A stretch of 64,000 bases of DNA from Lachnospiraceae bacterium (GTDB lineage: Bacteria > Bacillota > Clostridia > Lachnospirales > Lachnospiraceae): assembly GCA_910575005.1 (NCBI GenBank), contig CAJTCL010000001.1, forward strand, positions 310,001-374,000, in the 5' to 3' direction. Under the pieces are notes generated by a model, which was not told where the DNA came from, did no database searches, and was given only the letters and a program-made list of their open reading frames with translations. This document shows positions 12,581 through 43,858 of the stretch, in pieces (positions within the stretch are counted from its first letter, which is position 1; each line of letters begins with the position of its first letter). The position numbers and the translations under genes were made by a program.

Positions 12581-12610
12581 TTGGCAAATAAGTATGCTTG
12601 CGAGTATAAT
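12581..12610 (+). promoter_or_regulatory. Sigma-A promoter in front of DUF3880 copy 3
   Basis: TTGGCA at 12581-12586 and TATAAT at 12605-12610 are separated by 18 bases. It lies in the 151-base gap between copies 2 and 3, so copy 3 can be expressed independently of the two coupled copies. Confidence 0.55.
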
Positions 12611-12649
12611 TATCAATTATTCTATATAAAAAATTTCAGGAGGTTTTAT

Positions 12650-13930: not shown

Positions 13931-14743
13931 TTATCCAAGTAAGGACAATACACCCTGGTTAGACTGATTAGCCTGTGCAAGCATAGACTGGCCAGCCTGA
14001 GCAAGAATGTTATTCTTGCTGTACTCAACCATCTCTTCTGCCATATCAACGTCACGGATACGAGACTCAGCAGCAGATGTGTTCTCGGAAATGTTATCCA
14101 AGTTAGAGATGGTGTGCTCTAATCTGTTCTGAAGAGCACCCAGCAAGGAACGCTGATCAGATACTTTGTTAATAGCACTCTGGATCTTATCCATTGCAGA
14201 ACCAGCGCCACTATGAGATGTTACGCTCAAACCAGTTACACCTAAAGAACCAGCGTCCATGTTGCTGATCTTGATGCTGATAGTCTGCTTAGACAAAGCA
14301 CCAACCTGAAGGTTCTTTCCTGAGAAAGTACCATCTAACAGATTCATAGAGTTGAACTGTGTGGTTGACTGGATTCTGGTGATCTCAGATGTCAGCTGAT
14401 CAATTTCGTTCTGGATAGCATTTCTGTCGATTGTGGTGTTGGTATCGTTAGCAGCCTGAGTTGCCAGCTCGTTCATTCTCTGTAAGATAGAATGAGCTTC
14501 ATTCAATGCACCCTCAGCAACCTGGATTAAGGAAACGCCGTCCTGAGCGTTAGAAGAAGCTTTGTTCAAGCCTCTGATCTGGCTTCTCATTTTCTCAGAA
14601 ATGGATAATCCAGCAGCGTCATCGCCTGCACGGTTGATTCTATAGCCAGAAGATAATTTCTCAGTTGATTTTGCCTGTGCGCTTGTTGTGATACCTAACT
14701 GTCTGTTAGCGTTCATTGCTGTAATATTGTGCTGTACTACCAT
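13931..14743 (-). CDS. hag: Flagellin, major filament subunit
   Basis: The protein has 270 aa from the ATG at 14743, which follows AGGAGGA; an upstream in-frame ATG at 14812 would prepend unrelated residues. MVVQHNITAMNANRQLGI, KLSSGYRINRAGDDAAGLSISEKMR and the C-terminal MLAQANQSNQGVLSLLG are the D0/D1 domains; ENTSAAESRIRDVDMAEEM is also typical. The variable D2/D3 region is nearly absent, as in Bacillus Hag. It is a single-gene unit with its own sigma-D promoter, a CsrA-type leader and a terminator, lying between its chaperone operon and an array of glycosyltransferases. It is exported by the flagellar type III system and polymerises into the filament. Confidence 0.98.
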   Translation of the reverse strand: MVVQHNITAMNANRQLGITTSAQAKSTEKLSSGYRINRAGDDAAGLSISEKMRSQIRGLNKASSNAQDGVSLIQVAEGALNEAHSILQRMNELATQAANDTNTTIDRNAIQNEIDQLTSEITRIQSTTQFNSMNLLDGTFSGKNLQVGALSKQTISIKISNMDAGSLGVTGLSVTSHSGAGSAMDKIQSAINKVSDQRSLLGALQNRLEHTISNLDNISENTSAAESRIRDVDMAEEMVEYSKNNILAQAGQSMLAQANQSNQGVLSLLG

Positions 14744-18803: not shown

Positions 18804-18889
18804 TAAAATCACCTCCATGTGATAATTCAAACAGATGGATTGGCATTGCCATCTGTCATATTCTTCTTAATATCCTTATCTTGTAGTAA

Positions 18890-19137: not shown

Positions 19138-19602
19138 CTATTCACCCGCCTTTTCTTTCTTTGCCTGCAAAATCTCGTAAATGGGGAATTTAACTGGAAA
19201 ATCATCCTCCACAATCACCTGTACCGCTTTACGCTCTTTGACATTAATCACAATCGGTGCTTTTAAATTTACACTAAGCTTCTTCACATCTGCTGTAGCT
19301 GTAACTGTCACCAACACATATGTGTCATCCTCCTCTAAGGTACCCAGATGCTTTAAAAGTTGTTCTTCCACCTTAGGGCTGTAATCCTCCTTCACTAACA
19401 AAGGATCCAACACCGGAAGTGCAAACGCTGGTTCTTCAATAGACTGCAGCCAGGAAATATTTTTCTGCCTGCCATCCTCCCCCTCATCATAGACCAGGGT
19501 AAATCTCTGGCAATGCGGAAAACCAATAATCCCCTTCTCAAAGAATATCATCTTCTCTTCTTCAATTTCAATCTTACCAAATAACTTTGTATTTAACTGC
19601 AT
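19138..19602 (-). CDS. fliW: Flagellar assembly factor FliW (CsrA antagonist)
   Basis: The protein has 154 aa, the family norm. LFGKIEIEEEKMIFFEKGIIGFP is the signature N-terminus, followed by RFTLVYD, SIEEPAFALPVLDPLLV and ILVTV-type strands, here YVLVTVTATADVKKLSVNLKAPIVINVKERKAVQVI in the same order. FliW binds free flagellin or CsrA: when flagellin is exported, freed FliW blocks CsrA and lets hag be translated. It is directly followed by csrA. GGAGAGGCAT precedes the ATG. Confidence 0.97.
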   Translation of the reverse strand: MQLNTKLFGKIEIEEEKMIFFEKGIIGFPHCQRFTLVYDEGEDGRQKNISWLQSIEEPAFALPVLDPLLVKEDYSPKVEEQLLKHLGTLEEDDTYVLVTVTATADVKKLSVNLKAPIVINVKERKAVQVIVEDDFPVKFPIYEILQAKKEKAGE

Positions 19603-19656: not shown

Positions 19657-21180
19657 CTACAGATAATTAAGAAGCGTCTGGCCATTTGCTTTCGAGGTTG
19701 CCTGAAGAGATGCCTGATATGCCGTATATGCAGCCGTATATTCAATTATAATATCGGACAGCTCTTTATCTTCATTTCTGGTTTTCAACTGTTCAAACGT
19801 CGACTGCTGTTCAGATACTCTAGTCTCTGTCAATAATAGACGGTCTTCCCTGCTTCCCAAGTCAGTTCTGGCAAGTGTGATATTATCTTTATACTTCTGG
19901 AATTTATCGACCCCTTTAGAATAGAGCTTCTGCATATTGGTATCAGCATACACGGCTTCCTTCTCAGCAGCCTCAAGCCACTCCTTCAGTCCAGCCTGTG
20001 ATGCTGGGTCTGCATACTGTTCTTGTTTCTGCATCTCTTTGATTTTATCTACTTTGTCATGGGCAGCAATTGCTGCCTGAACTGCATTTGTCAGTTCATC
20101 CACATCCCTGCCAATTGAAGAATTAAATACATCACTTGCCTGAGTATTTACCGTCAAACTCTGATTAAAGGCCACTGTATATTTGATCTCTTGATTCTGT
20201 TTTGTATATTTGATGGTATTGTCAGGATCTGTAATATCTTCACAATCAAAATAATGCTCTGGAAGAAGTTCTCCCTCGCTAAATCCCTTCTTGGTATAGG
20301 TAACACTGAGTTCTGTCTTCTGGCTGCCAAATGCGTTGGCAACATCCTTGCCTAAAATCAATTCCCCAGTTTCCTTAAGAAAAATTACCTGTTTATCTCC
20401 CACATAAAAATCATCCGCTGCCCATTCATCATAGGACATATTTGTAGTAACACTTACCAGGTCATCACCAATTTCCATATCTTCTAGATTTTGCCAGCGT
20501 CCTCTGGCCTCATCATAAAATTTTATGTCTTTGGAAGTCAGCTCCTCCATCTTCTCATAGGAGAGACGAATACGCTTATTGGTATATTCTTTCGGCATAT
20601 CTGTAAGATCTACACCTGCCAGCACATCTGCCGATGTATTAGGCACTGTCACCTGATTATTATAATAACGCATTTCCTCAATATCCTGATAGGAAACCTT
20701 TTCCGTAATCTTATAGGTGGTATCTGCCTGATCTTCTGCAAAAGTCAATGGTTTATTGGTCTTATATCCTGTAAACACATATCTGCCGATGCAATCTGCA
20801 TTTCCCTCCCGATAAACCTGGCTGCGCAGAGATTGAAGATTCTTTAAGATCGCTGCCCTGTCCTCTTGATTCAATGGATCATTGCTGCCAGCCACACATT
20901 CTTTATAGACATCATCCATAATCCTTTCCATGTTGATCAGAGCACCCTCTGTCACTTCAATCCAAGATTTCGCATCCTGGATATTCCGCTCTACGTACTG
21001 ATCCAACTCAAATAAATTACTTCTCAGACGCAGCGCACGAATTGCAATTACCGGGTCTTCCGAAGGCCTGGAAATCTTTTTCTGACTAGTCATCTGGTTA
21101 TTCAGCTTATCCACATTGACCTTGTTGCTGTTCATATTAGTCATGCTGTTCTTGCTGATCATACTATTGGTAACTCTCAT
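19657..21180 (-). CDS. flgL: Flagellar hook-filament junction protein FlgL
   Basis: The protein has 507 aa. MRVTNSMISKNSMTNMNSNK, KISRPSEDPVIAIRALRLRSNL and GRYVFTGYKTNKPLTF (residues ~140-160) are diagnostic of FlgL/HAP3, and the C-terminal LARTDLGSREDRLLLTETRVSEQQ...LQATSKANGQTLLNYL is the D0/D1 partner helix. It joins the FlgK ring to the filament. The central region is larger than in Bacillus (298 aa), adding surface domains of unknown role. AGGAGGTTTGTAA precedes the ATG, 11 bases after flgK2. Confidence 0.96.
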   Translation of the reverse strand: MRVTNSMISKNSMTNMNSNKVNVDKLNNQMTSQKKISRPSEDPVIAIRALRLRSNLFELDQYVERNIQDAKSWIEVTEGALINMERIMDDVYKECVAGSNDPLNQEDRAAILKNLQSLRSQVYREGNADCIGRYVFTGYKTNKPLTFAEDQADTTYKITEKVSYQDIEEMRYYNNQVTVPNTSADVLAGVDLTDMPKEYTNKRIRLSYEKMEELTSKDIKFYDEARGRWQNLEDMEIGDDLVSVTTNMSYDEWAADDFYVGDKQVIFLKETGELILGKDVANAFGSQKTELSVTYTKKGFSEGELLPEHYFDCEDITDPDNTIKYTKQNQEIKYTVAFNQSLTVNTQASDVFNSSIGRDVDELTNAVQAAIAAHDKVDKIKEMQKQEQYADPASQAGLKEWLEAAEKEAVYADTNMQKLYSKGVDKFQKYKDNITLARTDLGSREDRLLLTETRVSEQQSTFEQLKTRNEDKELSDIIIEYTAAYTAYQASLQATSKANGQTLLNYL

Positions 21181-21191
21181 TTACAAACCTC

Positions 21192-23018
21192 CTATACACC
21201 CGTCTCTAAAATTAACCGATTATAAATTTCAGACATTGTCTGAATCATCCTGGATGCCAAATTATAAGCATTCTGGAACTTAACAATATCCAGTCCTTCC
21301 TCATCCTCATCTACTGCTGAGATAGACATCCTCTTTTGTTCAATGGTATTAGAAATATTACTGTAATTTTTCAAAAAAGTCTCTGATTTCTGAGTATCTA
21401 CTGAATTATCAGTAATCAAACATTTCAAAAATGAATCTGCGCCGCCGCCGCGGAACATCTTGATCTCTGATTTGAGCTTTTGCATCTGCTCCACTAAATT
21501 CTGGTTAGCCACTCCATCTGGCAAATCCTTATCTGTCAATGTTACCATACGATTAGGATCTTTGAGTTCATCGGCAACTTTAATGTTAGCCGCTGTCAAT
21601 TTATAGTAATCATTCTTAAAGGTGCTCATATTTCCTGTAGCATCATAATCGGCAAAATTATATTCACTGCCGTCCGCCTTATTTCCGGCCACAAAGAACG
21701 CGCCTCCGGCAACTCCGTTTAAGTCTACACCAGACTGCTGAATCTGATTGAGCTGCTTTGCAAATTCCCGCAAAAACTCATTGGCCTGCGCCTGATAATA
21801 AGGTATTCCCATCGCATCAATATCTTCCCCAATATTAGCTTTACGATTATTCAGAGACTCACGTTCCTCTACGGAAAGCGTATATTTTAACTGGAACTGA
21901 TAGGTCTTAGTCTCAGCGTCATAGGTAAACCCTGAATAACGATAATCCTTGTTGTTGAGCGTGATGATTCCGTCATCTGGCATATTCATTTTATTGATAT
22001 CTGTAATACTGGGATTCATAATTGTGACAATATCTCCATCTGCTCCAGGCACGATAGATTTCACGGTGCCGCTAAAAGCCTGATTATTATTGCCATCTCG
22101 GGTATCAAATAATCCCTTCAATCTTCCTGTACAATTCTTACCAGAGGCATTGAAAGGAATATTATCTTTGGTCCAGTAGATGTCATAGAGCCCTTCTGCA
22201 TCAGATTGATTGACCTTCTTATCTCTTGCCACATAGGTCAAAGTATTGTATTCAAAACTATCCACCAAAGTCTGCCCATTGATTTTTAGCAGATAATTTG
22301 TTCCTCCTGTATAGATCTCTGGATGACTGGTATTCGTCACCTTGGTCTCTTTCACTTCCACATCGACCAAATCAGACAATTCATCCACCAGCAGCGCTCT
22401 CTGGTCGCGCAGCTCATTAGCATTACTTCCCTGCAGCTCAATAACATTGATCTGTTTATTTAAAAGCGCAATCTTTTGTGCAATTCCATTGATCTGGTCA
22501 ACCTGAGTAGCAATCTCCTGATTACAGTCCTCCTGCATCTTCAAAAAACCAGTATACATGCTCTGGAAAAAATTAGCAAAGCTCTCAGACTTGCTGATAA
22601 ATGATTTTCTGGCATCCAATTCTTCTGGTGTTTCCCTTAATGTATCTAAGGCTCCAAACATTTCATCCAAAATAGTGGCAAACCCTTTTTGATTGTCATC
22701 ATTGAGAAGGTATTCCTCAATCTGCTGCATGTAGTACAACTTACTGTCATACATCCCCGTCTTGGCATTATTCTCCCAATATTTAACATCATAATAAAAA
22801 TCTCTTTTTTGAATGATCTCTGTGGTGACAACACCGCTTCCCACAGTACCATAACGCTGATTTGTACGCAGCGCCTCAGCCGCTATGCGGACTGCTTCCT
22901 GTCTGCTGTAACCCTTTGTATTTACATTTGAAATATTATTTGCAGTTGTATTCAGCGCTGCCTGAAACGTATTCAGCGCTGAACCTGCAATTGTAAGCCC
23001 AAAAAATGTTGATGGCAT
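21192..23018 (-). CDS. flgK: Flagellar hook-associated protein FlgK, copy 2
   Basis: The protein has 608 aa. FFGLTIAGSALNTFQAALNTTANNISNVNTKGYSRQ is the flg_bb_rod motif and C-terminal KFQNAYNLASRMIQTMSEIYNRLILETGV the matching D0 helix, the standard FlgK arrangement. Residues ~250-440 are an expanded middle. It lies 24 bases after another flgK (copy 1) and 11 bases before flgL. It shares the N-terminal pattern with copy 1 (ALNTTANN) but differs elsewhere, so it is an old duplication, not an assembly artefact. CAGGAGGTAGTAT precedes the ATG. Confidence 0.95.
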   Translation of the reverse strand: MPSTFFGLTIAGSALNTFQAALNTTANNISNVNTKGYSRQEAVRIAAEALRTNQRYGTVGSGVVTTEIIQKRDFYYDVKYWENNAKTGMYDSKLYYMQQIEEYLLNDDNQKGFATILDEMFGALDTLRETPEELDARKSFISKSESFANFFQSMYTGFLKMQEDCNQEIATQVDQINGIAQKIALLNKQINVIELQGSNANELRDQRALLVDELSDLVDVEVKETKVTNTSHPEIYTGGTNYLLKINGQTLVDSFEYNTLTYVARDKKVNQSDAEGLYDIYWTKDNIPFNASGKNCTGRLKGLFDTRDGNNNQAFSGTVKSIVPGADGDIVTIMNPSITDINKMNMPDDGIITLNNKDYRYSGFTYDAETKTYQFQLKYTLSVEERESLNNRKANIGEDIDAMGIPYYQAQANEFLREFAKQLNQIQQSGVDLNGVAGGAFFVAGNKADGSEYNFADYDATGNMSTFKNDYYKLTAANIKVADELKDPNRMVTLTDKDLPDGVANQNLVEQMQKLKSEIKMFRGGGADSFLKCLITDNSVDTQKSETFLKNYSNISNTIEQKRMSISAVDEDEEGLDIVKFQNAYNLASRMIQTMSEIYNRLILETGV

Positions 23019-23042: not shown

Positions 23043-24740
23043 TTATAATCTGGTAACGAGATGCTCTAACATCTCCGAAATTACATTGATAAAACGGCTG
23101 GACGCATTGTATGCACTCTGATATTTGATCATATTCTGTAATTCTTCATCTGAAGAAACACCAAATACCATTTGTCTATTATTCTCAATACTGGCAACCT
23201 CTCCGCTGAGACTCTCCGAAAGTCCTTCGTACACATTCCCTGTTACTGCCACATCCTCAATCAATCTTCCGTAGTATTCCTTAAAGGTACAAAGATCTGT
23301 ATTACTGGGATTGATTGTCTGAGTCTTCTTTTCCCACAGTTCTACCAATTGCTGTGCCATATCCAATGCTGGCTCTCCGTCCTTGCGCAGATGTGGTATT
23401 CCACTCTCTCCCTGCAGAAGTTCTGGATTTACTACCGTTCCCTGATAACCATACATTTTTGCAGTATCATAAGGATCTTCTTCATTATATACATAATAAA
23501 CGCTTCCATCATTCGCCACAACTTCTGTGTAACGATCGCATCCTCTGCGAGAAAACAACTCTTTGCCCGGCTTCTGGCCATCTGCGCCGAGACACCCGTT
23601 CTCTTCATCCCAAACCTTGACATTATTATAGACTGTTCCATCCATTCCCACAAAACTCTTGGTAGTGGTTGGACTGAAAATATCATTGATTGCTGTGATA
23701 ATCTCATGTGTCAATTGATCAAGTTCTGCTTGGGAATTCATAATGACTGACATTGCCACGCCATCCTCATATTCCTGTTGGCTTTTTCCTGTAATATCCC
23801 GATAATCTGCCGGCCTATCGCCTCTTGATAGAATCAGACCCTTCAACTCTCCAATATCTGTATTCAATGTTGGTGAAATATCTCCGCTCTTGAAATCAAA
23901 CATATAAGTATACTGTTCTCTACCCATATCTGAGAGCTGCGGCCAAATCGGTGTCACAAATCCCGTTACTGGATCGGTTATTCCCTTTATTTCGTATACG
24001 TGAATCTCATCCACAAATTCCACATTCTCAATTTTTACTCTTACTGTTCCATCCGCCCGTTCCTTATAATCAACCTTAGCCAGGGCAGACAGTTCATCCA
24101 AGGCATTGTCCCGCTCGTCACGCAGCGTCATTGCCGTCTCAATGCCGCCGCATTCAATCTTTAAGATCTGCTGGTTTAATTCCTGGATTGTATGACCAAG
24201 TTCATTGATCCTGTCAATCGCATTATTTACTTTATAATTCAGTTCTCTCTGATAAGATTTAAAATTTTCCTGAATTGCCTGTGTACGCTCCAAAAACAGA
24301 GTTGCCTTCTGAACCACTAAGGTTTGATAATCTTCCTGATCTGGTCCTTTTGCGAACTCTGCAAAAGACTGCCAAAATTCTTCCAGCGCTGTCTGAAACT
24401 GCTGTCCATCCAATTCCTGAAACATGGATTGCGCTTCTCTTGTTGCCTCTGCACAAGCTTCATAAAAAGACTGTCTGCCGTTTTCCAATCGATAACGCTG
24501 ATCCAAGAAACGATTTCTGGTGTGCACCACATCTGCAATCGTTACCCCCAGACCTGCCTGCTGTTTGCTGATGGCCGCTTTGCCAAACGTCACATAATCA
24601 CGATCAGCAAACATTACTTGTTGTCTTACATAACCCTTAGTATCTAAATTAGCCAAATTATTGGCTGTTGTATTTAAAGCATTTTGACTATTCTGTAAAC
24701 CGGATGCTCCAATATACAGACTTCCCATTCCATTTGCCAT
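23043..24740 (-). CDS. flgK: Flagellar hook-associated protein FlgK, copy 1
   Basis: The protein has 565 aa. GSLYIGASGLQNSQNALNTTANNLANLDTKGYVRQ is the rod-type N-terminus and MIKYQSAYNASSRFINVISEMLEHLVTRL the C-terminal D0 helix. Residues 90-200 (FQELDGQQFQTALEEFWQSFAEFAKGPDQE) are classic FlgK D1. It follows flgN, its expected chaperone, across the structured repeat copy B. Having two complete FlgK-type proteins in one operon is unusual: one may be the true junction protein and the other a variant for the giant flagellin or a second filament type. Confidence 0.95.
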   Translation of the reverse strand: MANGMGSLYIGASGLQNSQNALNTTANNLANLDTKGYVRQQVMFADRDYVTFGKAAISKQQAGLGVTIADVVHTRNRFLDQRYRLENGRQSFYEACAEATREAQSMFQELDGQQFQTALEEFWQSFAEFAKGPDQEDYQTLVVQKATLFLERTQAIQENFKSYQRELNYKVNNAIDRINELGHTIQELNQQILKIECGGIETAMTLRDERDNALDELSALAKVDYKERADGTVRVKIENVEFVDEIHVYEIKGITDPVTGFVTPIWPQLSDMGREQYTYMFDFKSGDISPTLNTDIGELKGLILSRGDRPADYRDITGKSQQEYEDGVAMSVIMNSQAELDQLTHEIITAINDIFSPTTTKSFVGMDGTVYNNVKVWDEENGCLGADGQKPGKELFSRRGCDRYTEVVANDGSVYYVYNEEDPYDTAKMYGYQGTVVNPELLQGESGIPHLRKDGEPALDMAQQLVELWEKKTQTINPSNTDLCTFKEYYGRLIEDVAVTGNVYEGLSESLSGEVASIENNRQMVFGVSSDEELQNMIKYQSAYNASSRFINVISEMLEHLVTRL

Positions 24741-24908: not shown

Positions 24909-25421
24909 CTACTGTTTAGCATCAAAACCGCTACTGCCCAATAAATCTCCAGTATTATTAGCCTGCCTGTCATAATTCGCTGTTGTAGGCGCCTGGCGCA
25001 TACTGCGGAACAATGTCAAATCAAATTCAGCCATCTCCATTGCCTGCTTGAGTAATACTTCATTCTGACCATTGATATCAGCCATCTCATGTAAAGTACT
25101 CTTAAGCCTCTCCCGCAAATCTTCCAATTTACGCTGTTCATCTGGCTGTTTATTTAAAAATGCTATCATATTAGTAACTGTCAGCTCCTCTGGCTCCTTA
25201 CTAAGTACGATAGACATATCCTTGACAACTTCTCTTCTTTTATTTTCCAGATTGATCAGATTACCGGTGATCTCCTGCTCCCGACTGGTAATTTCCTCAA
25301 GGGCGGGAATATCGCCATCTATAATAATCTGTCGTTTCTCCTTAGACAGCTCTGTGAGATGCTGATACTCCCCGTTCTCCCGTTCCAATATATCCATAAA
25401 ATCTTCCATTAAGCTTGCCAC
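24909..25421 (-). CDS. flgN: FlgK/FlgL export chaperone FlgN
   Basis: The protein has 170 aa and is nearly all helix. FMDILERENGEYQHLTELSKEKRQIIIDGDIPALEEITSREQEI is the FlgN N-terminal helix pair, and LRERLKSTLHEMADINGQNEVLLKQAMEMAEFDLTLFRSM has the NGQNEVLL motif of the family. It keeps FlgK and FlgL unfolded for export, and these follow immediately. GTG at 25421 is chosen because GAGG lies eight bases before it; the internal ATG at 25409 has no ribosome site. Confidence 0.93.
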   Translation of the reverse strand: MASLMEDFMDILERENGEYQHLTELSKEKRQIIIDGDIPALEEITSREQEITGNLINLENKRREVVKDMSIVLSKEPEELTVTNMIAFLNKQPDEQRKLEDLRERLKSTLHEMADINGQNEVLLKQAMEMAEFDLTLFRSMRQAPTTANYDRQANNTGDLLGSSGFDAKQ

Positions 25422-28711: not shown

Positions 28712-31700
28712 TTAATTCTTAGCTTTGATGGACCGTACAGGTGAATAGCTGCTGTAAAAGGTTCCAAGACTACTTTTCTTGCCAACACGAATCTTATAAT
28801 AATAGGTCTTGCCTCCTGTTGCCTTCTTATCCGTGTATGAAGTCTTTTTGGTAGCTGTCAGCTTCTTGTATTTGCCCTTTTTGCTAGTGCTCCGATAAAC
28901 CTGATAGGTGGTAGCCCCTTTCACCTTTTTCCACTTAATAGTTGCCTGTTTGGATTTTGGTGAAGCAATACTTGTAATCGTGGTTGCCTTGGGTCCGGTA
29001 CTTGCTTTGATCTTAACAAAACTGCTAAAATAACGCTTTCCTCCACTAATTACATAGGATCTTACCCGGAAGGTTGCTGTTTTATTGGCCTTTAATTTCG
29101 ATACAGTTGCACTGGTGGTACTATTTTTCCTCACATGCGCTACCCGACGGTTTTTGGAATTGTAAATCTCATAACCGTTGACCAAATCATTCTTCTTCCA
29201 GGAGAAGGTAATACTGTTATCTGTGTACTTTTTCACCTTCACTGCCTTCAATTTCGGAATTATAATATTGAAGCTGACGGTCTTGGTTCCAGTATAATTG
29301 CCTTTTCCTTTAATAACGATATCTGCCTTGCCTGGTTTCTTATTCCCTACATATACTAATTTGTAGTCTGTTCCTTCTTTCAAGGTAACACTGCCGCTTG
29401 TTAATTTAACTTTTGGTTTTTTTGCTTTGCCAGTATAAGTCTGGTCAGCAACTTTGCCTACCTCTACTCTGCCAAGTCTCTGTGGTGTAATCTTAAAGGT
29501 CGTCTTTTTTGTTCCTGAATACTGATTGATTCCAGTAATAGTTAAGGTAGCAGTTCCAGCATTCTTATTATCTTTGTAACTAACCTTATAATGTACACCT
29601 TTGGTCAATACTGTTCCATTGTCTTCCACACGAATGATCGGTTTGATGGCCTTACCAGTGTAAGCGTAAGCAGATGCCACACCTTTAATTACTGTGTCCT
29701 TAGAAAATTCCCTGGCGATGTCAAAAGTAACTGTTTTGGTTCCAGTATACCATCCCTTTCCGGTAATGGTAATGGTGGCAGTTCCACGCTCTACATTGTC
29801 TTTATAATCCAATGTATAGTCGCTGTTCTCCTCTAGTTTCTTACCTGCAAAGGTAATCTCAGGTTTCGGGAATACCGCATTTCCAGTGTACTGCTGAGCT
29901 GGAATCTTTGCCACATCTGCCAGTTTCATCGGCCCTAAAATATTAAACTCAGATTCAATGCTGCCCTGATAATTTCCTACTCCTGTGATCGTAACAGTTG
30001 CAGTACCGACTGCCACATTTGAACTGTAAGTGAGTTGATAATCTTTGTTCAACACTAGCTGATTGTCAATTTCCTGCTCTTGATTCCAGAACTTAAGATC
30101 CACATCTGGTGTAACTCCTCCACCTGTATAGAGCTGATCTTCCAGAGGCTGCAGCAGCATATCACTTGCTATACCCTGATCTGAACTGATTGGCTTCTTG
30201 GTGATGGTAAAGTGAGCTGTTGCTGTTCCAGCTATATTGCCAGTACCAGTGACTGTGACTGTTGCTGTTCCAGCATCAATATTGTCTGTGTAGGCCACTT
30301 CATAATCTTTGCCCTCTTCGAGTACAATCTCGGTACCTGACAACGTTACTGTAATACTTGGTGTGATGGCTTTACTGTTATATTGCTGTTCTGGTATATC
30401 CGCAATCTGGAAAGCTCCTTCTATATTGATTGGAAGGATGAAAAATGGCACTTGACGTGTTCCAGTATAATTACCAATTCCCTGAATAGCCACATATCCT
30501 GTTCCGGCATTGATATTGTCGGAATATGCTCCCAACTGGTAATCTTCTCCTTCTACCAACAGTGTTCCATCTTTGGCCTTGACCTCAATAACAGTAGTAA
30601 CTTCCTGTCCAGTATATGTTGCGTTTGCTGCTGTAATGTCAAAGTCATCATTTTCTTCGCTGAGACTTTCTGGTTCGATGGTAAAGGTCTTGCGGATCGT
30701 TCCGCCATATTTGCCTATTCCAGTGACGATAATCACAGGTGCAGTCTCACCAGCACTTGCGCTTGCAGCTACAATATTGTTCTCGTAGGAAACTTCATAG
30801 TCAACATCTCTCTCAAGAATCACCTGATTTCCATTATCCATAAAGGACACTTCAATTTCTGGCTTTTTCTCTTTGCGGTCAAAAATCTGCGCACCATCTG
30901 TAATGTTGATTGTCATCTGTTCCACGGAACGTGGCACAATATTGAAATACAATGTCTTACGGTTTACATAGTTGCTGCCTTCTACTGCCTCAATAATCAC
31001 GCCTGCCTGTTTGCCTTCTGTGGAAATCTCAGTATTATTGACATAACCAACCACTTTGTAATCCACATTTGGCACCATTGTCTGTCCATGATTCTTAACT
31101 GTTACCTGAGGTTCGATTGCACTGCCATTATAAATATAAGCATTTTCGTATTCACCAATTGTCTGGCTTCCCAGGAACTCAGCGGTAATATCGCCTTCGT
31201 CTGTTGCCAAATCTTTGGGGATAATGTTATAGAAACGCTTAATTATACCACGATAACAATCAATTCCCCGAACCACTACGGTTGGCCTGTCGGCCTCCTC
31301 AGCGTCCTCACTTGCCACATTCTTATTGTTCTTGCTGACTTCTGGCGCATCTCCCTGATTCTCTAAAGTGACAATCTCAAAATCCTCTCCTTCGACCAGG
31401 ATCTTTGCCTCATTTGTCTCACCACAGAGCACACCGGAATAATCCTTAAAGATCAATTTTGGATATACATCCACAATACCAAACGGAACATCATGATCAT
31501 ATTCAAGTTCCATATAAGGAATAGGCGGATTGGGATCGTCTACAACTTCAATCGTTGCCATAATCTTGAAATGTTTATCGTAACTTCCTGCATAATTACT
31601 TTCTTCTATCGCAGAAATCGTTACAGTAGCCTCGCCAATCTTAATATTATCCTTGTAGATTATCTCATAATCCTGATCTTCGACCAAAAGCTTGCGAACC

Positions 31701-34700
31701 TGGGTTCCATCATCATAGTTTTTACTCCATGTAACATCAATGGCATTTTTATTTGGATCAGATGGAAGTGGAAATTCCACTTTTTCCCCAGTATAGTCCA
31801 TCTCTGGTGTAACACCGGCAACCTCAACTAATGTATCTATCGTCTCCTGAGAAATCTCTCTTGGGTTGATCTTAAATTCTTTCTGGAATTCTCCCTTGTA
31901 ATTTCCAGTATACTCTTCACCATTCTTGCGGGCGCTTACAGTGACGATTGGTGTAAGACGTTCTCCCTTTTCGCCGTCAGGTCCCTGCGCATATTCATAA
32001 ACGTTCGTATTATTGACTGCCGAAATCTCATAATCATAATCTTCCGTAGTCTGTTCTCCTGATAAAATCCATTTCAGTTCTGTTCCATCACAGCTAATCA
32101 GCAATTCTGGCACGATAGGGGAACCTGTATACTCATACCCATCTTCCAACAATCCTGTCATACTAAGCAGCGGATCTTCCTCCAGCTTAGAGAGATCTCT
32201 CTGTAAAATCTGGAACTCCTTCTCCTTCTCTCCAGTATAACTGCCCTTGAGTGTGGTGCCATCCTCCTCATATACTGCTGTAATTTTGACTTTTGCAGCT
32301 GCACCATTCAAAGTTGCATTCTCATTATCACTCCAGCTTACTGTATAATCTTCATCTTTCTTCAGAGTGACTTCTTCAATTCTACCTGTTGGATATTCTA
32401 CATTGTAAATCACAACTGGCTCTGGTGTATTGGTAATAACTCCATTCTTAGGCGGTGTATAAGTCCAATCCTCCACCGTCATGACAGCCTTATCTCCTGA
32501 CAGATCCCCTACAATCTTAAAGTCTTCTGTCACAGTACCTGTAAAATTACCTTTTCCAGTAATCTTAATGGTTGCTGTAGCAATTGTATTGTTATTCTCA
32601 TAAGTCACATCATACTCTGTGTTTTCAAGTTTCCTTGGTGTCTGATCATTTCCATCCAGGTCAACTGGTGTATACCATACCTCTAAATTAGTCTGTACTA
32701 CGCCCCCAGAATCCTTTGTCAATTCTACTCCAGCGGCTGTACCTTCCAAAGCTTCTTCCCATGAAACCTGCTTTACAACATTGCGAAGTTCAATATGTCC
32801 CTGGGCATAAGAAGCACTGATATCATATGGCTGAATCTCAAATTCCTTCTTATATTGATTCTCATAATTAGGAGCAATTCCAAAGATGGTCAGTCCACCC
32901 ATACCAACATTGATATTCTCTTCATTGCCATCTATACCATATTCCACATAATACTCCTGATCATAGGTCAATGCTGTCCCATTATGTGTAATGTTCGGCT
33001 GTGGCCGAATCTGCAAACCAGAGTAAACATAAGTATCATTTACATTTCCAAGCACATAATTATTCTTTGTCAGATCATCCTTTTCCAGATCAAGTGGACG
33101 AATGGTGAACAAAATCGGTACTGTCTGGTCAAAATATTGTCCAATTCCCTTAATCACTGCCTGAGCCCTGTCAGATGCAGTTATGTTATCTGTACACTCA
33201 ATCTCAAAATCTTTTCCCAATACCAATTGCTTGCCAGCAAAAGTAACTTTTGTATCTTGAGGAACAATCTCCTTGCTGGTATAAATCTGTTCTGGAATCT
33301 CTACCTCTGTAAATCCATCCTTACCATAATCTGATAAATTTCCTTTGATGGTAAACTCCAGCGTCTTACTGCCAGTATAATTTCCTGTCATGGTTGGCAC
33401 AATACGAATCTGCGCTGTGCCAATCTCTTTGTTCTTGCTGAACACCAGCGTATAATCCTTGTCTGCCCCCTCTTCCAAAGGAACATTGACCATTCCATAT
33501 GCATTAAAAGTAATCTCTAATTGTGGCTTTACCTCTTGGCCAGTATATTCATAATATCTTGCATCTGCTGGATCTCCATTGGTAAAATCATAACCCATTT
33601 TACGATCTTGTGCAGTTAATGTTCCACTAGAAATATCTCTCTTGCTGATTGTAAAGTTCGTACTCTTTTCACTAGTAAAGTTTCCGATTCCTCTAACCTT
33701 GACACTAGCCTGCCCAACATAGATATTATTACTGTAATCATCGTTGCTTACCTCATAATCCACACCTTTGGCTAATGTCTTACCATTATAAGTTAGGACA
33801 GGTTCTGGATAAATCGGATTACCCGTAAACTGTATTGGAGAATCTACTTTGACTGTTACATCCTTCATATCCCGCTGCACAATCTCAAAGTTTTTTACAA
33901 TAGGAGAGCTGCCTGTGGTATAGTTACCTTTTCCTGTAATCGTAACCGTCGCTGTTCCTACATTAAGATTATTGCTGCACTCCACTGTAAAATCTTTATC
34001 CTCTGTAAGTCTAGTTCCAGACACAAGCACTGTCACTACCGGCTTAATTGCCTCACCTGTGTAGGGTGTCTGACCATCCGGCCTCATTGTAACTGTGGTA
34101 TTATTCTCTGTCATCTGTACAGGACTGATCTCAAATGTCTGTTTCTGAGAATTTCCTGTAAAATCTCCCTTTCCTACTGCATATACCTCTGCTGTACCAG
34201 CGTTGATATTATTAGCATAATTCAATGGCAATACATAATCGGTTCCTGCCACCAGTTCCTGAATGCCCCCATCTGCCTTCGTATAAGTCAACTTCACTCC
34301 TGGTGTATAAGCTGTACCATTATATGTATAGCTTACCTGTGCATTATCAGCCAGGGCAATACTAGCTGCGGACAAGTCACGGGGATGTACCTCAAAAGTT
34401 TTTCTGACAATATCTCCTTTTAAGGTACCTGCCGGCCTGACTACCACTTGATAGCTGCCTGCATGGACTGCCGTCATTACATCCACAGTAAAATCGCTTC
34501 CCTGTTGATATTCAATGGTACCTTTCCTAACTGTAATTTTCAGTTTTAAAAACTGATCTGTACCATCATACACACAAGCAATATCGTCCACTTGCACCAT
34601 GCTATCCTCAAGCTTTGGAGCCACAATCTTAAATGGCAAAGTTAGACTTCCTCTGTAGCGCCCATTTCCTCTGACAGTTACAGTTGCCTGCTCTGTCTCC

Positions 34701-35770
34701 TGTGTATTATTCTCAAATCCATTGGTACCAGCACTTGTATCAATCTCATAATCATAATCGGTGTCAGCATCACTGGTTTTAGGCTTCAAATACTCTCCTG
34801 GATAATCTGGATCTCTCAACTTAATCTGATCTGCACCAAATTCTACTGCTACTCCTGGCCCTGCATAAGACTGATCTGCAATGGATTCTGCCACAATATT
34901 CTTTCCTGGATCATATCTGTCCTCAATGCTCTTCCAAACTGTATAATTCTGTATACTACTATGAAGTCCGGCATAATCATTCATACCAATAATCTGCACT
35001 TCCGCCTTCGTAGTGGCACGGTTGATATTATTGTAGCGTATGCTATAATCCTGCCCTTCCGTCAAGGATGTTGTGTCATATTTTACATCTCTGAGCGCAA
35101 TTTTTCTATCCTCACCGTTCCTATATTGTATGCTATCTCCATCAAGCTTAAAGCTTAACTTCCCTGCATCAAGCTGTATAATCTCAAAAGTAGCTGTCAA
35201 TGTTCCCTGATAGTTATTCTGTCCGGTTACCGTTACAGTGGCAGTTCCCACCGTATCATTACCTGTAAACCAATAAGTGTAATCCTCATCTCCTACCTTT
35301 GATGGAGACAAAACACCCTTTAATTCCTGGTTGCCTGCATTCTTCACAGTTATAACGGGTGTCACTGGTGTACTCCCTTTTAGGATCTGCTGCCCGATTG
35401 GAGCGATTGAAAAATCTGGACTAAGATTCTTTGCTGCAATCACAAATGAAACATCTACTTTGTCTTGCGCATTCGCATTATTTGTTACTGTTACGGTTGC
35501 AGTTCCTCTGTTGGTATTATTCGCATATGACAGCGAATAGTTACTATCAGCTATCACTGTGTTGGTATCAGGATCAGTGACTGTAACCGTTGGCGTCTTC
35601 TCCTGCCCATCATATATGAATGGTCCCCCATTTACGCTAATCTCTGCATCACGTATCAGACGGTCATTATCTGCCGCATGTACAATAAAGCCGGAAAGAT
35701 CTATCATCCCGGCTATCATGCAGACACTTAACACCAACGCCATAATTCTTCTGGCAATGTCTCTGTGCAT
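28712..35770 (-). CDS. Giant secreted beta-repeat surface protein (MBG-like repeats, C-terminal fibronectin III)
   Basis: The protein has 2352 aa. A signal peptide (IARRIMALVLSVCMIAGMIDLSGFIVHA) precedes about 24 repeats of ~75-95 residues. Each reads roughly YTGxxxxPxVxV, GxxLxxGxDYxVxYxxNxxxGTATVTITGxGNYxGxxxxxFxI; examples are QEKTPTVTV (first) and YTGKAIKPIIRV (near the end). Two fibronectin-III-like domains at ~2150-2350 (ITFSWKKNDLVNGYEIYNSKNR; ATIKWKKVKGATTYQVYRSTS) end the chain. No LPXTG tail or C-terminal membrane segment is seen, so attachment is unclear. Repeats vary, so a recent expansion is unlikely. AGGGAGGGAAAGATT precedes the ATG; sortase and LRR genes follow within 30 bases each. 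Confidence 0.87.
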   Translation of the reverse strand: MHRDIARRIMALVLSVCMIAGMIDLSGFIVHAADNDRLIRDAEISVNGGPFIYDGQEKTPTVTVTDPDTNTVIADSNYSLSYANNTNRGTATVTVTNNANAQDKVDVSFVIAAKNLSPDFSIAPIGQQILKGSTPVTPVITVKNAGNQELKGVLSPSKVGDEDYTYWFTGNDTVGTATVTVTGQNNYQGTLTATFEIIQLDAGKLSFKLDGDSIQYRNGEDRKIALRDVKYDTTSLTEGQDYSIRYNNINRATTKAEVQIIGMNDYAGLHSSIQNYTVWKSIEDRYDPGKNIVAESIADQSYAGPGVAVEFGADQIKLRDPDYPGEYLKPKTSDADTDYDYEIDTSAGTNGFENNTQETEQATVTVRGNGRYRGSLTLPFKIVAPKLEDSMVQVDDIACVYDGTDQFLKLKITVRKGTIEYQQGSDFTVDVMTAVHAGSYQVVVRPAGTLKGDIVRKTFEVHPRDLSAASIALADNAQVSYTYNGTAYTPGVKLTYTKADGGIQELVAGTDYVLPLNYANNINAGTAEVYAVGKGDFTGNSQKQTFEISPVQMTENNTTVTMRPDGQTPYTGEAIKPVVTVLVSGTRLTEDKDFTVECSNNLNVGTATVTITGKGNYTTGSSPIVKNFEIVQRDMKDVTVKVDSPIQFTGNPIYPEPVLTYNGKTLAKGVDYEVSNDDYSNNIYVGQASVKVRGIGNFTSEKSTNFTISKRDISSGTLTAQDRKMGYDFTNGDPADARYYEYTGQEVKPQLEITFNAYGMVNVPLEEGADKDYTLVFSKNKEIGTAQIRIVPTMTGNYTGSKTLEFTIKGNLSDYGKDGFTEVEIPEQIYTSKEIVPQDTKVTFAGKQLVLGKDFEIECTDNITASDRAQAVIKGIGQYFDQTVPILFTIRPLDLEKDDLTKNNYVLGNVNDTYVYSGLQIRPQPNITHNGTALTYDQEYYVEYGIDGNEENINVGMGGLTIFGIAPNYENQYKKEFEIQPYDISASYAQGHIELRNVVKQVSWEEALEGTAAGVELTKDSGGVVQTNLEVWYTPVDLDGNDQTPRKLENTEYDVTYENNNTIATATIKITGKGNFTGTVTEDFKIVGDLSGDKAVMTVEDWTYTPPKNGVITNTPEPVVIYNVEYPTGRIEEVTLKKDEDYTVSWSDNENATLNGAAAKVKITAVYEEDGTTLKGSYTGEKEKEFQILQRDLSKLEEDPLLSMTGLLEDGYEYTGSPIVPELLISCDGTELKWILSGEQTTEDYDYEISAVNNTNVYEYAQGPDGEKGERLTPIVTVSARKNGEEYTGNYKGEFQKEFKINPREISQETIDTLVEVAGVTPEMDYTGEKVEFPLPSDPNKNAIDVTWSKNYDDGTQVRKLLVEDQDYEIIYKDNIKIGEATVTISAIEESNYAGSYDKHFKIMATIEVVDDPNPPIPYMELEYDHDVPFGIVDVYPKLIFKDYSGVLCGETNEAKILVEGEDFEIVTLENQGDAPEVSKNNKNVASEDAEEADRPTVVVRGIDCYRGIIKRFYNIIPKDLATDEGDITAEFLGSQTIGEYENAYIYNGSAIEPQVTVKNHGQTMVPNVDYKVVGYVNNTEISTEGKQAGVIIEAVEGSNYVNRKTLYFNIVPRSVEQMTINITDGAQIFDRKEKKPEIEVSFMDNGNQVILERDVDYEVSYENNIVAASASAGETAPVIIVTGIGKYGGTIRKTFTIEPESLSEENDDFDITAANATYTGQEVTTVIEVKAKDGTLLVEGEDYQLGAYSDNINAGTGYVAIQGIGNYTGTRQVPFFILPINIEGAFQIADIPEQQYNSKAITPSITVTLSGTEIVLEEGKDYEVAYTDNIDAGTATVTVTGTGNIAGTATAHFTITKKPISSDQGIASDMLLQPLEDQLYTGGGVTPDVDLKFWNQEQEIDNQLVLNKDYQLTYSSNVAVGTATVTITGVGNYQGSIESEFNILGPMKLADVAKIPAQQYTGNAVFPKPEITFAGKKLEENSDYTLDYKDNVERGTATITITGKGWYTGTKTVTFDIAREFSKDTVIKGVASAYAYTGKAIKPIIRVEDNGTVLTKGVHYKVSYKDNKNAGTATLTITGINQYSGTKKTTFKITPQRLGRVEVGKVADQTYTGKAKKPKVKLTSGSVTLKEGTDYKLVYVGNKKPGKADIVIKGKGNYTGTKTVSFNIIIPKLKAVKVKKYTDNSITFSWKKNDLVNGYEIYNSKNRRVAHVRKNSTTSATVSKLKANKTATFRVRSYVISGGKRYFSSFVKIKASTGPKATTITSIASPKSKQATIKWKKVKGATTYQVYRSTSKKGKYKKLTATKKTSYTDKKATGGKTYYYKIRVGKKSSLGTFYSSYSPVRSIKAKN

Positions 35771-38906: not shown

Positions 38907-38965
38907 TTGTAATATTGACCATGCATATACAATCACATGATTATTTTGGAAAGAGGGGGCTAAAT

Positions 38966-41900
38966 ATGTTATTTGTCAAAAGTAATCTCACCGCCTTAAA
39001 TACGGCAAATCAACTGAAGATCAACACCAACAAGAAAAATAAGTCTATTGAAAAACTCTCCTCTGGCTATCGTATCAACAAAGCAGCAGACGATACGGCA
39101 GGCCTTGCAATCTCTGAAAAAATGCGCTATATGATACGGGGACTGGATCAGGGGAGTAAAAATGTCGAGGATGGCATCTCCTGGGTACAGACGGGAGATG
39201 GTGCTTTAAATGAAGCACATGATATTCTTCACCGCATGACCGAATTAACGATTCAATCTCTCAATGATACCAATACAGAATGGGACCGCAAGGCATTACA
39301 GATGGAATTTGAATCGCTGCAAAGTGAACTGGACAGAATTGGCCAGACCACACAATTCAACGATATGCCGATTTTTGAGGAGCATGAAGGTCCTTACTAT
39401 CAGTCTGAAGGAAATATTCACTGGGATCCCCAGCAACTTCATGTGGTCACAGCGGGAGACAATGATCTCACCTTCACTTACCGAATGGATGACGCTTCTC
39501 CTACAAAGACAATCTCTATTTCTGTTCCTCCAGGAGAGTATACTACACAAGAACTTGTGGACGAGATTGAATCTGTATTGGGCAATGCCTCAACAGGTGA
39601 TGAAAAAATCATATTTGAGTACACACCAGATGGCACCTGCAATGTCAATCTGGAGGGAGCTCAAAATCTGGACTGTGTGTCAGGCGGTCTTTCTTATCTC
39701 TTAAACCAAGTATATCGTGGAGGCGGATTTGGCGCTCTGATCGGCACAACAATTTTCCCAACAGAATACAGCGAATTAGAAATTAAAAAAGGCCAGAATA
39801 ATTTCATGAGTTTCTCAATTGAAGATTTTGCCGGCAACAAAACAATCAAAGATATTGACATCCCAGATGGAGATTATACCAGAAAAGAGTTGATTGATAT
39901 TTTAAATAACCAGCTTGCTGGTACAAGTGTAAAAGCCACTGCTTATGGAACAGGAATCCGCCTGGCCAGCGATGATTCTATTGTCACTGGATTCAAGGGC
40001 AATATGTTTAAAATTGACGGCAGCGGAAAAATCTATGATTCCGTTTTCTATGACAATGTAAAATATGGTTCTTCGATACAGACAGCAGGCGTATTTACTG
40101 GCGGATGTGTGCTGCCCACAAATTCCAAAGACGAAGAACATAAATATTATAACATTGATAACAATAATAATACATTAAAACTGCAGCCCAACGGCATGTC
40201 TTCCCCTGTCACACTTATGATTGATGCTGGTAAATATACTGCCTCTGAGATGAAAGACAAATTAAATTCTTTGTTTGCATTTGCTGGCGTTGGCGTCAAA
40301 GCAGAAGTGATCACATCGGGCGGCTTTCAAGGCCTTAAAATCACTTCCACGGAAAAAGGTCTAAACAGCGCCATAAATATGGATGCGACCAGCAGTGCAT
40401 ACAACACATTATTTGTGACCAGAGAATATAACCAATATGGAACTCAGGCCAATATCACAAATGAGACACGAGCAGATACTGATGGAATCTTTTATGGAAC
40501 AAAAAATTTATTATCGCTCCCTATCGCACCTTTAACGGTCACAGCCGGCGTCAACGACTCCTTTAACCTCTCCATCAATGACACAGATTATACTGTCTCC
40601 ATCACTGCAAAAACTTATAATAATATTGACGACGTAGTGAAGGAACTGAATGAACGTCTCAACGGAGCTTCTGCGCCTATGGCTTACAAAGGAAAAGTTA
40701 TTGCCTCCACCTCCGATGGCAAAATTGTATTGACGGGACAAAACGGCCAGACTGTTGATAAAATTCGTGTGTCGATCAATGGCAGCAATGGTGGATTCGA
40801 TGAAATTTTCCGCGGTTCCAAAACAACCTCTACCTCACAAAATGTTTCTGGCACAGGTTCTGTCACTTTAAACACTCCATTCGATGGAACCATTAATCCC
40901 TCGGACAGTAATTTGACAATCAATTTAGATGGCAAAAACCATACCGTTACACTGCCAACCGGAAATGTAAGCCAAGATCAGATCATTGATGCCATTCAAA
41001 ATGCAATCCCGCCTACAACAGAGACAAAACCAAACCGATTTCCAACAGTCAGTGCCACTGGAACGACTACCGACCGCAATTTTAACAAAACAGCCACCGG
41101 AGATCAATCCTCTGTTTCTTGGTCAAATTCTGCCACTGGTTCTTCCGAAAAGTTGGAAGGCGTGGTGGGTTATATAAATAACATCCCCGCTGAGTTGACC
41201 ATAGGACCTGCATTGAAAGATTCCATGACTGTAGATGATTCCAACGACAAAATCACTATCACCTCAAATGGCAAAATGGAGACTATCACCTTAGATCATA
41301 AAACCTACACCCCTGAAAGCCTGAGGAGTGATCTTCAGAACAAAATAAATAACGTGTTTGGCGAGGCAATGGGCGGCGTTAAAGTGGAACTCAAAGGCAA
41401 TCAACTCCATTTAACCTCAAACCTTCCAGAAGGAGCCAATGGAGCAAAGACCAATCTTTCCTGCTCTACCTCCAACAGCAGCTTTTTAAAGGATCTGAAT
41501 ACTACCAGAAAACCAGCTACGCTGACCAGCAATCTCCCTCTGGCCTCCTCCATTTCCATTGATGGCAGTAATAATACCTTCCAGTTCCAGTTAAAAGAAC
41601 ATGGCGCATCGCAGACTGTAACGCTTGCTCTGTCAGCAAATACTTATAGTCCCAGCACTTTGGTGGACGAAATCAACCGTCAACTGAAGCAGCAAAACAT
41701 TGCCGTCACAGCTTCTGTCTCAAATGGTAAGCTAATGCTCAAATCAGAGGCCACTGGAAGCGATACTTCCATCAGCTACAACACTCATTTTGGCGGAAGC
41801 TCTGTGGAAGCTTTATTTGGGCCGATGTCAGAGAAAAAGCCGGCAACAGCCGTTGCAAATATGGATACACAGCCAAGTATTACGATTGAGGCCGGCAAAA

Positions 41901-43789
41901 CAGACCAATTTACTCTTGCTGTGAATAATACAAATGTCACTGTCACTCTGGACAGCGGCACTTATGACCGTGACAAATTTCTGGAAATGTTAAACAATAA
42001 ACTGGCGGGCAAAGGTGTAACAGCCAGTTATTTGGGCAATAAACTGCAGTATCAGACCACTGACAGCGGCAGCCAGACCTCCATCTATATGAATTATGAT
42101 TATGGCGGTTCTGCTATGAAACAAATCTATGGCGAGACAACCACCACTACCCCTGGAATCACTGCAACTTTTACACCAGAAGGGTACCTGACCTTGGGCA
42201 GCACAGACCCCAACAGCAAAATTACAATTTCCTCCTCTGGCGGCGGCGCTTTTCAAAAACCCACAATAACAAATGTCCCAATAGAGCCAACTTTCACTGA
42301 CGGCTACCACTCTTCTAAGCAGAGCCGTGTCGACGGCGTAGCCTTAAATGGGGATATCACGATTGACCAGTGGAATGATCATTTACAGTTTCAATTTACA
42401 GACGCCGGGACACCTAAAACTATATCTTTTGATATTCCACAGGGAACCTATACTTATACAGAATTGCAAACTAAAGTTCAGGGCCTTGTAGATGCACAAC
42501 TTGGGACCGCAGGAACGATCAATGTCACTGTTGATGCCAGCGGTGTAAAGCTTGTCGCCGCAAAAGCCGGAAATAAGTATAAGTTCAGCAGTTTCTCTGG
42601 TGACTTCTATGATAAAGTAATGTGCCAGTGTACAGAACAGAGCTTTGCTCAAAACACACAAAATAAAGACGGCGAGCAAAAAGTAGATCCTGCTTATACC
42701 GTTGGACGTAAGGATGTCAAAAATGAAGGCGCTGATATCCGCAAAGGAATCAATGATGTGCTGTCTTTGGATTTAACTTTTGGAAATCAATCTCAAACCA
42801 TTCAGGTAACCCTTGACCAAGGCCGATATAGCGGAGATCAACTAAAAAATCATCTGCAAGAAAAAATCAACAAAGAACTTTCCGACCTCGGATTTCCTGA
42901 AAATATGATTGAAGTGGGCCTTGGCGATATTAACAGCGGAATCTCTGGTTCCAATGACCAGAATGCCATCAACTTCAAGCTTTCAGATAAAGTTAAGCTG
43001 CCAGATGAAGGAGAAGTTATTATTGACGGCGTGAGCGGCAATGCCGCTTTTGAGATTTTTTACCAGACAGACGGCAAAATGATACCTGCCTATATTGTCG
43101 GCACGAAAGATATCACCCAGGGAGTAACTATTGGTCCTGAGGACACCGATTTCTCCCTGGAAGTAGATGGGGTCAAATATGCCATCACCATTCCTGAGGG
43201 CGAATACACGGCAGATGAGCTGGTGGATAAGATCAACCAGGCGATCGATGCCAGCGGCGCGCCTCTGATTGCCTCCGTGGACAATAACAATCTGAAAATT
43301 TCTCACAAGCAAATGGGGGAACACAAGATTGATCAGATTATGGGCGGAGCCAAAGATAAGGTATTCTTTTCTGAAAATTGGGACAAAGAGAAAAAGTCTG
43401 GACGTTACATCCAGGCAAGCAGCCAACAAAATGATGAGCTCATTTTAAAACGACATGTATTTAATACGGCATATCTGGGCATTAACTCTGTCTGCATCTC
43501 AAAACCCAAATATGCTAACAAAGCCCTTGACCGGCTCGATCAAGCCCTAAATATGATCTCCGATATTCGCAGCGATTTTGGCAGCATGCAGAATCGACTA
43601 GGGTACACATTCGATAATAATAACAATAAATCCGAGAACACTGCGGCCGCAGAATCCCGTCTGCGTGACTTAAATATGGCCTCAGAACTGGTTCAATATG
43701 CAAGCCGTAACATTTTAGAGCAAGTCGGACAATCTATGTTGACGCAGGCACACCAGTCGCAAGAACGAATCTTAATGTTGTTGAGGTAA
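38966..43789 (+). CDS. Giant flagellin with about eleven flagellin-insert repeats
   Basis: The protein has 1607 aa from the ATG at 38966, preceded by GAGGGGGCT; an upstream in-frame ATG at 38915 lacks a site. Residues 1-140 ([70 protein letters not shown]) and the last ~90 ([79 protein letters not shown]) are flagellin D0/D1 halves that pair in the filament. Between them lie ~1370 residues in about eleven beta-rich units resembling the flagellin hook IN repeat. An ordinary flagellin has 270-500 aa. One cysteine-bearing repeat aside, no catalytic motif is seen. It may be a minor or phase-specific filament subunit bearing large outward domains. It is transcribed divergently from spoIID and ends at a terminator. 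Confidence 0.92.
   Translation: [1607 protein letters not shown]
39440..43360 (+). repeat. Tandem flagellin-IN-like repeat array inside the giant flagellin
   Basis: Units begin near 39440, 39770, 40155, 40510, 40880, 41215, 41545, 41875, 42340, 42750 and 43110. Each has a strand pair of the form NDxLxFxL-x(5-12)-KTITIxIPxGTYTxxELxxxINxxLxG, often followed by an AxVxxGxLxIxS strand and a GxxFGxIFG-like turn. Lengths vary (about 90-150 residues), so these are diverged domains, not recent duplications. Confidence 0.75.
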
Positions 43790-43816
43790 GTTATTTTGCA
43801 TAAATGTACATAATAG

Positions 43817-43858
43817 AAATCAGAATCGTCCATTATGGTGGATGGTTCTGATTTTTTA
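43817..43858 (+). terminator. Terminator of the giant flagellin gene
   Basis: AAATCAGAA at 43817 pairs, with G-U pairs and one bulge, with TTCTGATTT up to about 43854, closing a short loop, and T residues follow to 43858. It lies 28 bases after the stop. Confidence 0.7.

Follow-up and report, generated by a model that had tools for sequence, protein, structure and literature searches.

Eleven repeated outer units in a Lachnospiraceae giant flagellin of a distinct lineage

The window analysed here, 64,000 nucleotides of a Lachnospiraceae genome (GCA_910575005.1, contig CAJTCL010000001.1, positions 310,001 to 374,000), holds an ordinary hag flagellin gene and, on the opposite strand, the gene of a flagellin about six times as long. 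What is the additional protein made of, from which flagellin does it descend, and what could it do in a filament? An earlier note on this DNA had described a giant flagellin of 1607 amino acids (aa) with intact ends around about eleven repeats.

A giant flagellin with ordinary ends

The gene and the elements around it are as follows.

38966..43789, plus strand: giant flagellin gene, open ATG frame, 1607 aa, 174 kDa, isoelectric point 4.85
38950..38959, plus strand: purine-rich AAAGAGGGGG upstream of the ATG, resembling a ribosome-binding site as judged by eye
38975..39382, plus strand: N-terminal D0/D1 half, Flagellin_N (Pfam, residues 4-139, E 2.6e-38)
43526..43783, plus strand: C-terminal D1/D0 half, Flagellin_C (Pfam, residues 1521-1606, E 2.7e-17)
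43815..43856, plus strand: terminator-like hairpin of 19 pairs followed by a U-rich tail (-24.2 kcal/mol, z -6.58)

Both Pfam families that mark a bacterial flagellin are present, and the length and the large central insert are those of a giant flagellin (more than 1000 aa), with about 1370 residues of outer region between the D0/D1 halves. The N end is 55% identical with the hag of the same genome and the C end 49%. The earlier description of the frame and of its intact ends is thus confirmed. A TTG at 38915 is a possible alternative start, and the Pfam scan gave no family above the cut-off other than these two. Because a purine-rich stretch precedes the gene and a hairpin with a U-rich tail follows it, the gene looks like a single-gene unit; the hairpin is absent from the list of a consensus scan.

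The insert is an array of eleven related units

Unit borders were first set by eye, which gave eleven units of about 100 residues. Profiles were then cut at these borders from an alignment of nine giants and compared pairwise, with one partner reversed as a control. The probability was at least 50 for 53 of the 55 pairs and at least 90 for 45 of them, as against none of the 110 reversed controls at 50 or above. A profile built jointly from 98 copies of the unit detects 11 units in the window protein, no more and no fewer (E 8e-17 to 2e-32); this profile includes the window units themselves, and the independent test is that of unit against unit. The insert therefore consists of a tandemly repeated outer domain, and the earlier "about eleven" can be made exact. 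The units found by the profile are:

39431..39754, plus strand: unit 1
39761..40063, plus strand: unit 2
40139..40447, plus strand: unit 3
40529..40840, plus strand: unit 4
40889..41167, plus strand: unit 5, the least conserved by identity comparison
41198..41521, plus strand: unit 6
41525..41836, plus strand: unit 7, predicted ordered (structure model, fold comparison)
41855..42151, plus strand: unit 8, predicted ordered (structure model)
42338..42646, plus strand: unit 9, predicted ordered (structure model, fold comparison)
42722..43078, plus strand: unit 10, predicted ordered (structure model), with confidence below that of the other units
43109..43438, plus strand: unit 11, predicted ordered (structure model)

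In predicted fold, two units resemble outer domains of flagellins and FliD

The earlier note had named a disordered insert as one outcome that would count against it. In the half covered by the structure model, units 7-11 are each predicted to form an ordered small domain, and an unordered region is rejected for these units. For units 7 and 9 there is a clear likeness of predicted fold, over the whole domain, to outer domains known from FliD and from ordinary flagellins (Vibrio cholerae flagellins, FliD D2-D3).

At the level of sequence families the likeness is more remote. Pfam makes no Flagellin_IN (PF07196) call on the whole giant even at E 1, and PF07196 has no match at E 0.001 anywhere in the window genome. 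Family scans of 39 of the 52 listed unit copies gave weak PF07196 matches in six (best E 6e-4). When the units were compared by profile with nine of the eleven PF07196 segments found, the probability was 94 for unit 7, 90 for unit 4, 76-84 for units 2, 3, 6 and 8, 54 for unit 11 and 38 for unit 5. The units taken together reached 80, units 1, 9 and 10 by themselves stayed below 2, and no reversed control exceeded 7. One PF07196 match in an FlgL-like gene of another genome (G684) sits inside a match of the insert profile. The units, of about 100 aa as against the 55 positions of PF07196, are thus remote homologs below the gathering cut-off of the family, and the earlier label "flagellin-IN-like" holds in this distant sense and not as a Pfam assignment.

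The insert profile also matches other proteins of the order and class weakly, in 27 genomes (6 + 21) with a best E per genome of 1e-4 to 6e-11. Among the 21 open reading frames (ORFs) examined, 17 start like FliD and three like FlgL, by start motifs that we take to be diagnostic, and one is a 915-aa flagellin. Pfam scans of eight of them found FliD_N with FliD_C in five and Flagellin_N with Flagellin_C in three. Against PDB, the whole-insert profile gave just two chance-like matches, and the unit profile placed FliD 5fhy second of 13 (E 0.01) among unrelated entries. Adeno_Penton_B matched six of the 39 unit copies weakly (best E 8.9e-5), and penton structures gave weak matches too; these matches look like a common short motif. 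That the insert is not of the peptidase type, as the earlier note had it, agrees with the Pfam scan, in which no peptidase family appears at E up to 1; the NCBIfam flagellinolysin family reaches 38 bits against a cut-off of 205, with the end of its profile at residues 1419-1538.

A phage family of unknown function, phrog_19400 (119 aa), matches 17 of the 39 unit copies (best E 8.9e-11) and the whole giant at E 4.5e-23; it is possibly a module common to phage proteins, or else a flagellar fragment in phage data. A tblastn search of the giant against 50,697 phage records returned 12 records, in every one of which the match is to the flagellin ends, extending in two of them to residues 172 and 184, and a scan of viral contigs with units 1-2 returned 56 pattern matches, none of them confirmed. 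Neither search gives a sign of a phage origin of the array, and the phrog_19400 match is unexplained.

Giants of the same plan occur in related genera

Few candidates were scored per genome in the genus and family samples, and the counts of giants are lower bounds. The giant is present in at least 3 of the 29 genomes of the genus sample (the window genome, G015 and G028) and in at least 10 of the 299 genomes of the family sample, each from a different genus and the window genome counted. The G015 protein is 95% identical with the window giant, and the G028 protein 64-69%. In one such genus (two of five genomes) a second species has a copy that is cut by a contig end. G545, from another family of the order, bears a 1675-aa copy and a second giant, and L056 (JAEEZH010000155.1) is a further giant-bearing record. 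Giants with 8-12 detected units extend over at least ten genera of this family and reach a second one. G545 has four flagellin frames of more than 1000 aa (L101, L190, L191, L192), two with the unit and two without it.

The patchy distribution, and the broken frame of the G028 giant on a 7.7-kb draft contig, would fit a gene that is decaying or non-functional and kept by chance. However, the frames are open, at 1254-1808 aa, in 12 other relatives, and the window and G015 giants are of equal length and align without a gap, with a ratio of nonsynonymous to synonymous divergence (dN/dS) of 0.11 overall. This purifying selection largely refutes decay, which we regard as very improbable. That long proteins of one plan are kept in related genera suggests that the giant is no accident but a part of the flagellum with a special purpose.

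The order of the units is kept among the giants. Long members have 10-12 unit matches; where there is a twelfth, in G042 and G545, it is short and additional. The G156 giant lacks unit 7. Three members of 1254-1259 aa (G185, G052 and G303) have eight matches each, best to units 1, 2 and 3, one or two of the middle units, unit 9 (unit 6 in G185), and units 10 and 11. Mean identity over six members is 60% at the N end, 30% in unit 5 and 54% at the C end. Conservation is thus lowest in the middle of the array, and it is the middle units of which the shorter members are short. Both may be so because the chain runs out and back with its middle at the tip; the array would then fold as a hairpin that has units 5-7 at its tip and keeps units 1-3 and 9-11 close to the core.

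Unit order is not accompanied by gene order. Across 12 loci compared, homologs of spoIID and M23 stand beside the giant only in G015, the nearest species, and no neighbouring gene family is present at more than three loci; the contig of G028 is too short for a judgement. A conserved neighbourhood is therefore rejected, and the spoIID-flanked position that the earlier note proposed to look for in other Lachnospiraceae is shared by the nearest species only.

The ends form their own lineage, and the insert may have been exchanged

In trees of the D0/D1 ends, 13 giants form one clade, with support of 100/99 in a tree of 36 rows and 97/99 in one of 71 rows. Left out of these trees are FlgL, flagellin frames that are short or cut, the G028 giant with its broken frame, a partial giant of G327 and the second G545 giant, whose start is unclear; one row (G240) is cut, and the long branches call for care. 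As the giant ends form a clade of their own, we reject a recent origin of the giant by insertion into its genome's hag. The larger tree places the giants in a clade of 25 rows (99/98) together with 11 of the 18 other large flagellins and one flagellin with a 502-aa frame. Among 20 flagellin ORFs examined, only the second G545 giant has the unit, and 17 of them stay below a probability of 2 in profile comparison with it. Most large inserts examined thus sit on one core lineage, and the eleven-unit array is one kind of insert on it. Judged from its ends, the giant belongs to a distinct flagellin lineage. The core lineage of the giants and the 11 other large flagellins is separate from the hag-type and MKINHN-type flagellins.

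In outline, the insert tree of the giants matches their end tree; G185, G052 and G303, with eight units each, form one clade (100/100) in the former and not in the latter. Between the window and G015, synonymous divergence (dS) is 0.155 in the insert (dN/dS 0.14), 0.55 and 0.94 in the two ends, and 0.45-0.95 in seven flanking genes. Insert dS is therefore three to six times below that of the ends and flanking genes (window 38966-43789 against L057 6949-11769). The best explanation is that recombination recently exchanged the insert, but hag dS is also low (0.129), which leaves room for other causes.

The giant may be made less, or less often, than hag

The late flagellar cluster lies in the same window on the strand opposite to the giant:

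13934..14743, minus strand: ordinary hag flagellin, 270 aa from MVVQHN, possible filament partner
14928-15407, minus strand: FlgN-like gene, below the Pfam cut-off
15997-18273, minus strand: FliD
18285-18830, minus strand: FlaG
19138-19602, minus strand: FliW
19657-21180, minus strand: FlgL-like gene, by position and start; its Pfam matches are Flagellin_N and Flagellin_C
21192-23018 and 23043-24740, minus strand: FlgK-like genes
24909-25421, minus strand: FlgN

A normal hag in the same window, as the earlier note had reported, is thus present, within a genome that has five Flagellin_N genes (the FlgL-like gene among them) and not two. In each of the 13 giant-bearing genomes tested there are flagellin genes besides the giant (RUG8 and G327 are outside this count).

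Upstream of hag, a sigma28-like site (TAAA-N15-TCCGATAT) starts at 166 nucleotides and fits 11 of 12 positions, a score equalled by 8 of 200 shuffles. The best candidate upstream of the window giant is no better than chance (297 of 300 shuffles). Among 14 giants scanned, good sites precede those of G156 (12 of 12 positions), RUG8 (11) and G088 (10), and a weak one that of G163 (10); the other ten have none. A scan for sigma70-type promoters gave 13, against 12.6 in shuffles.

The codon adaptation index (CAI) alone is confounded by strand, and we therefore used a reference-free count, the effective number of codons, in 11 of the 14 giant-bearing genomes or records (not G028, RUG8 and G545). In all 11 the first ordinary flagellin is more codon-biased than the giant, and in ten of them no giant window of equal length is as biased. 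Among six second flagellins, three (G015, G045 and G088) are matched in bias by 2-3 giant windows. CAI against the ribosomal cluster puts hag 4th and the giant 38th among the 42 window genes; within the plus-strand genes alone, most of which have low values, the giant is 9th of 13.

These results point to lower or conditional expression of the giant relative to the ordinary flagellin, its level not being proven. Together with the missing sigma28 site in this species, codon usage makes us lean towards a minor or conditional subunit; the adhesive, sheath-like or fixed-position roles that the earlier note had suggested are hypothetical. Two observations weigh on the other side: a flagellin of the window genome with a 489-aa frame and one flagellin of G156 also lack a sigma28 site, and a study of Eubacterium and Roseburia, in its available part, assigns one flagellin clade mostly to sigma43 (PMC3720852).

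A possible place in the filament

The giant would be exported unfolded through the flagellar channel, and its ends would polymerise into the ordinary filament lattice together with hag, so that the hairpin arrays would stand out as a tall outer layer. Less abundant than hag, it would not make up most of the filament but occur as a short thick stretch or as thick subunits scattered along it, and might stiffen the filament or present an interaction surface. To this reading, a giant of distinct lineage whose eleven outer modules give a hag filament a tall outer layer as a minor or conditional subunit, we give about even chances. A more specific version is tentative: a long-kept class of module arrays with its own D0/D1 core would make a short extra-thick segment at a defined place on a thin hag filament, its height tuned by gain and loss of tip modules (mostly about 11 units, 8 in one branch).

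The separate D0/D1 lineage, and the sigma28-like sites in G156, RUG8 and G088, would also suit a giant that forms a homopolymer of its own, a separate thick flagellum made under certain conditions. Geometry would allow it: a rough volume estimate gives an all-giant filament of about 25-52 nm, under assumed values for rise (0.47 nm), core radius (6 nm) and protein density. The weak codon bias of the giant speaks against such a filament. The precedent is Bermanella marisrubri: in the available text of the study concerned, giant flagellins can be the sole filament protein, with filaments of at least 30 nm, but there the giant is the only predicted true flagellin, unlike in the 13 genomes above (PMC6248924). 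We consider a separate giant filament rather unlikely, slightly more so than the defined thick segment.

The array might instead be mainly adhesive or surface-presenting, its units binding mucin, plant fibre or cells and motility being secondary. The contig of the nearest named relative has an MGBC label, which we take to denote a mouse gut catalogue, and unit 7 resembles FliD outer domains. Flagellins and FliD serve as adhesins in several species, as the accessible part of one source has it (PMC8306008). This role seems to us unlikely as the main one, and less probable than a separate filament.

Other genes near the giant and hag

The minus strand encodes, at 28712-35770 and so about 3 kb from the giant, a repetitive protein of 2352 aa that looks secreted and has an fn3 match. 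Two glycosyltransferase genes (9101-9919 and 12581-13822) lie near hag and the late flagellar cluster and could modify flagellins. Elsewhere in the window genome, a further flagellin-like gene (L004 1114-1893, G000:C1:243975) encodes 260 aa counted from MSISS; its N and C tips are odd, and short frames like it appear in several relatives. On one contig of G303, three flagellin genes of equal score, each of about 457 aa, stand near one another (G303:C45:3337-7996).

Comparison with known systems

None of the elements, whether giant flagellin, tandem outer domains or module fold, is new in itself. The earlier note had called the array a distinct solution; this is not supported in that form, since tandem outer domains are described in giants (PMC6248924, in part) and the unit fold resembles outer domains of ordinary flagellins and FliD. 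What is new is a distinct giant lineage whose relatives have 8-12 units, with kept unit order, low mid-array conservation and shorter members that lack middle units. A literature search returned no description of an eleven-module, lineage-specific giant in Lachnospiraceae, most subscription papers being outside its reach, and nothing on the name Flagellin_IN.

FlaB of Campylobacter jejuni, a minor hook-proximal subunit, is like the giant an additional flagellin without a sigma28 promoter beside a main flagellin that has one. However, the available text gives FlaB as 95% identical with FlaA, whereas the giant is six times the length of hag and its low abundance is only predicted (PMC7332011). 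Flagellinolysin is likewise a flagellin with a large insert (PMC7643111, available part), but that insert is a peptidase, of which the Pfam scan of the giant gave no family.

The closest likeness is to the Oceanospirillales giants (Thomson et al. 2018). According to the available part of that study, they too exceed 1000 aa and have normal D0/D1 ends with tandem outer domains in place of D2/D3; their tandem DE regions come in two copies, some with a DX insert, as against eleven units here. They are shown to build thick filaments, that of B. marisrubri being made of its giant flagellin, whereas the 25-52 nm given above is an estimate; in both species examined there, the giant is predicted to be the sole true flagellin, whereas other flagellins are present here. 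A figure legend of the same study names a Firmicutes giant, that of Eubacterium plexicaudatum, which may be related to the present lineage (PMC6248924). The giant raises the questions of whether eleven outer domains per subunit are more than a filament can bear, whether subunits of this kind are confined to one place, and what part they play in the viscous habitats of these bacteria. Flagellin outer regions are described, in the part of the source available, as hypervariable, with forms generally species-specific in the groups studied (PMC7018530). An outer region of about 1370 residues that keeps its module order over at least ten genera and a second family contrasts with this, and for that reason offers a testable case of a conserved and very tall flagellar surface.
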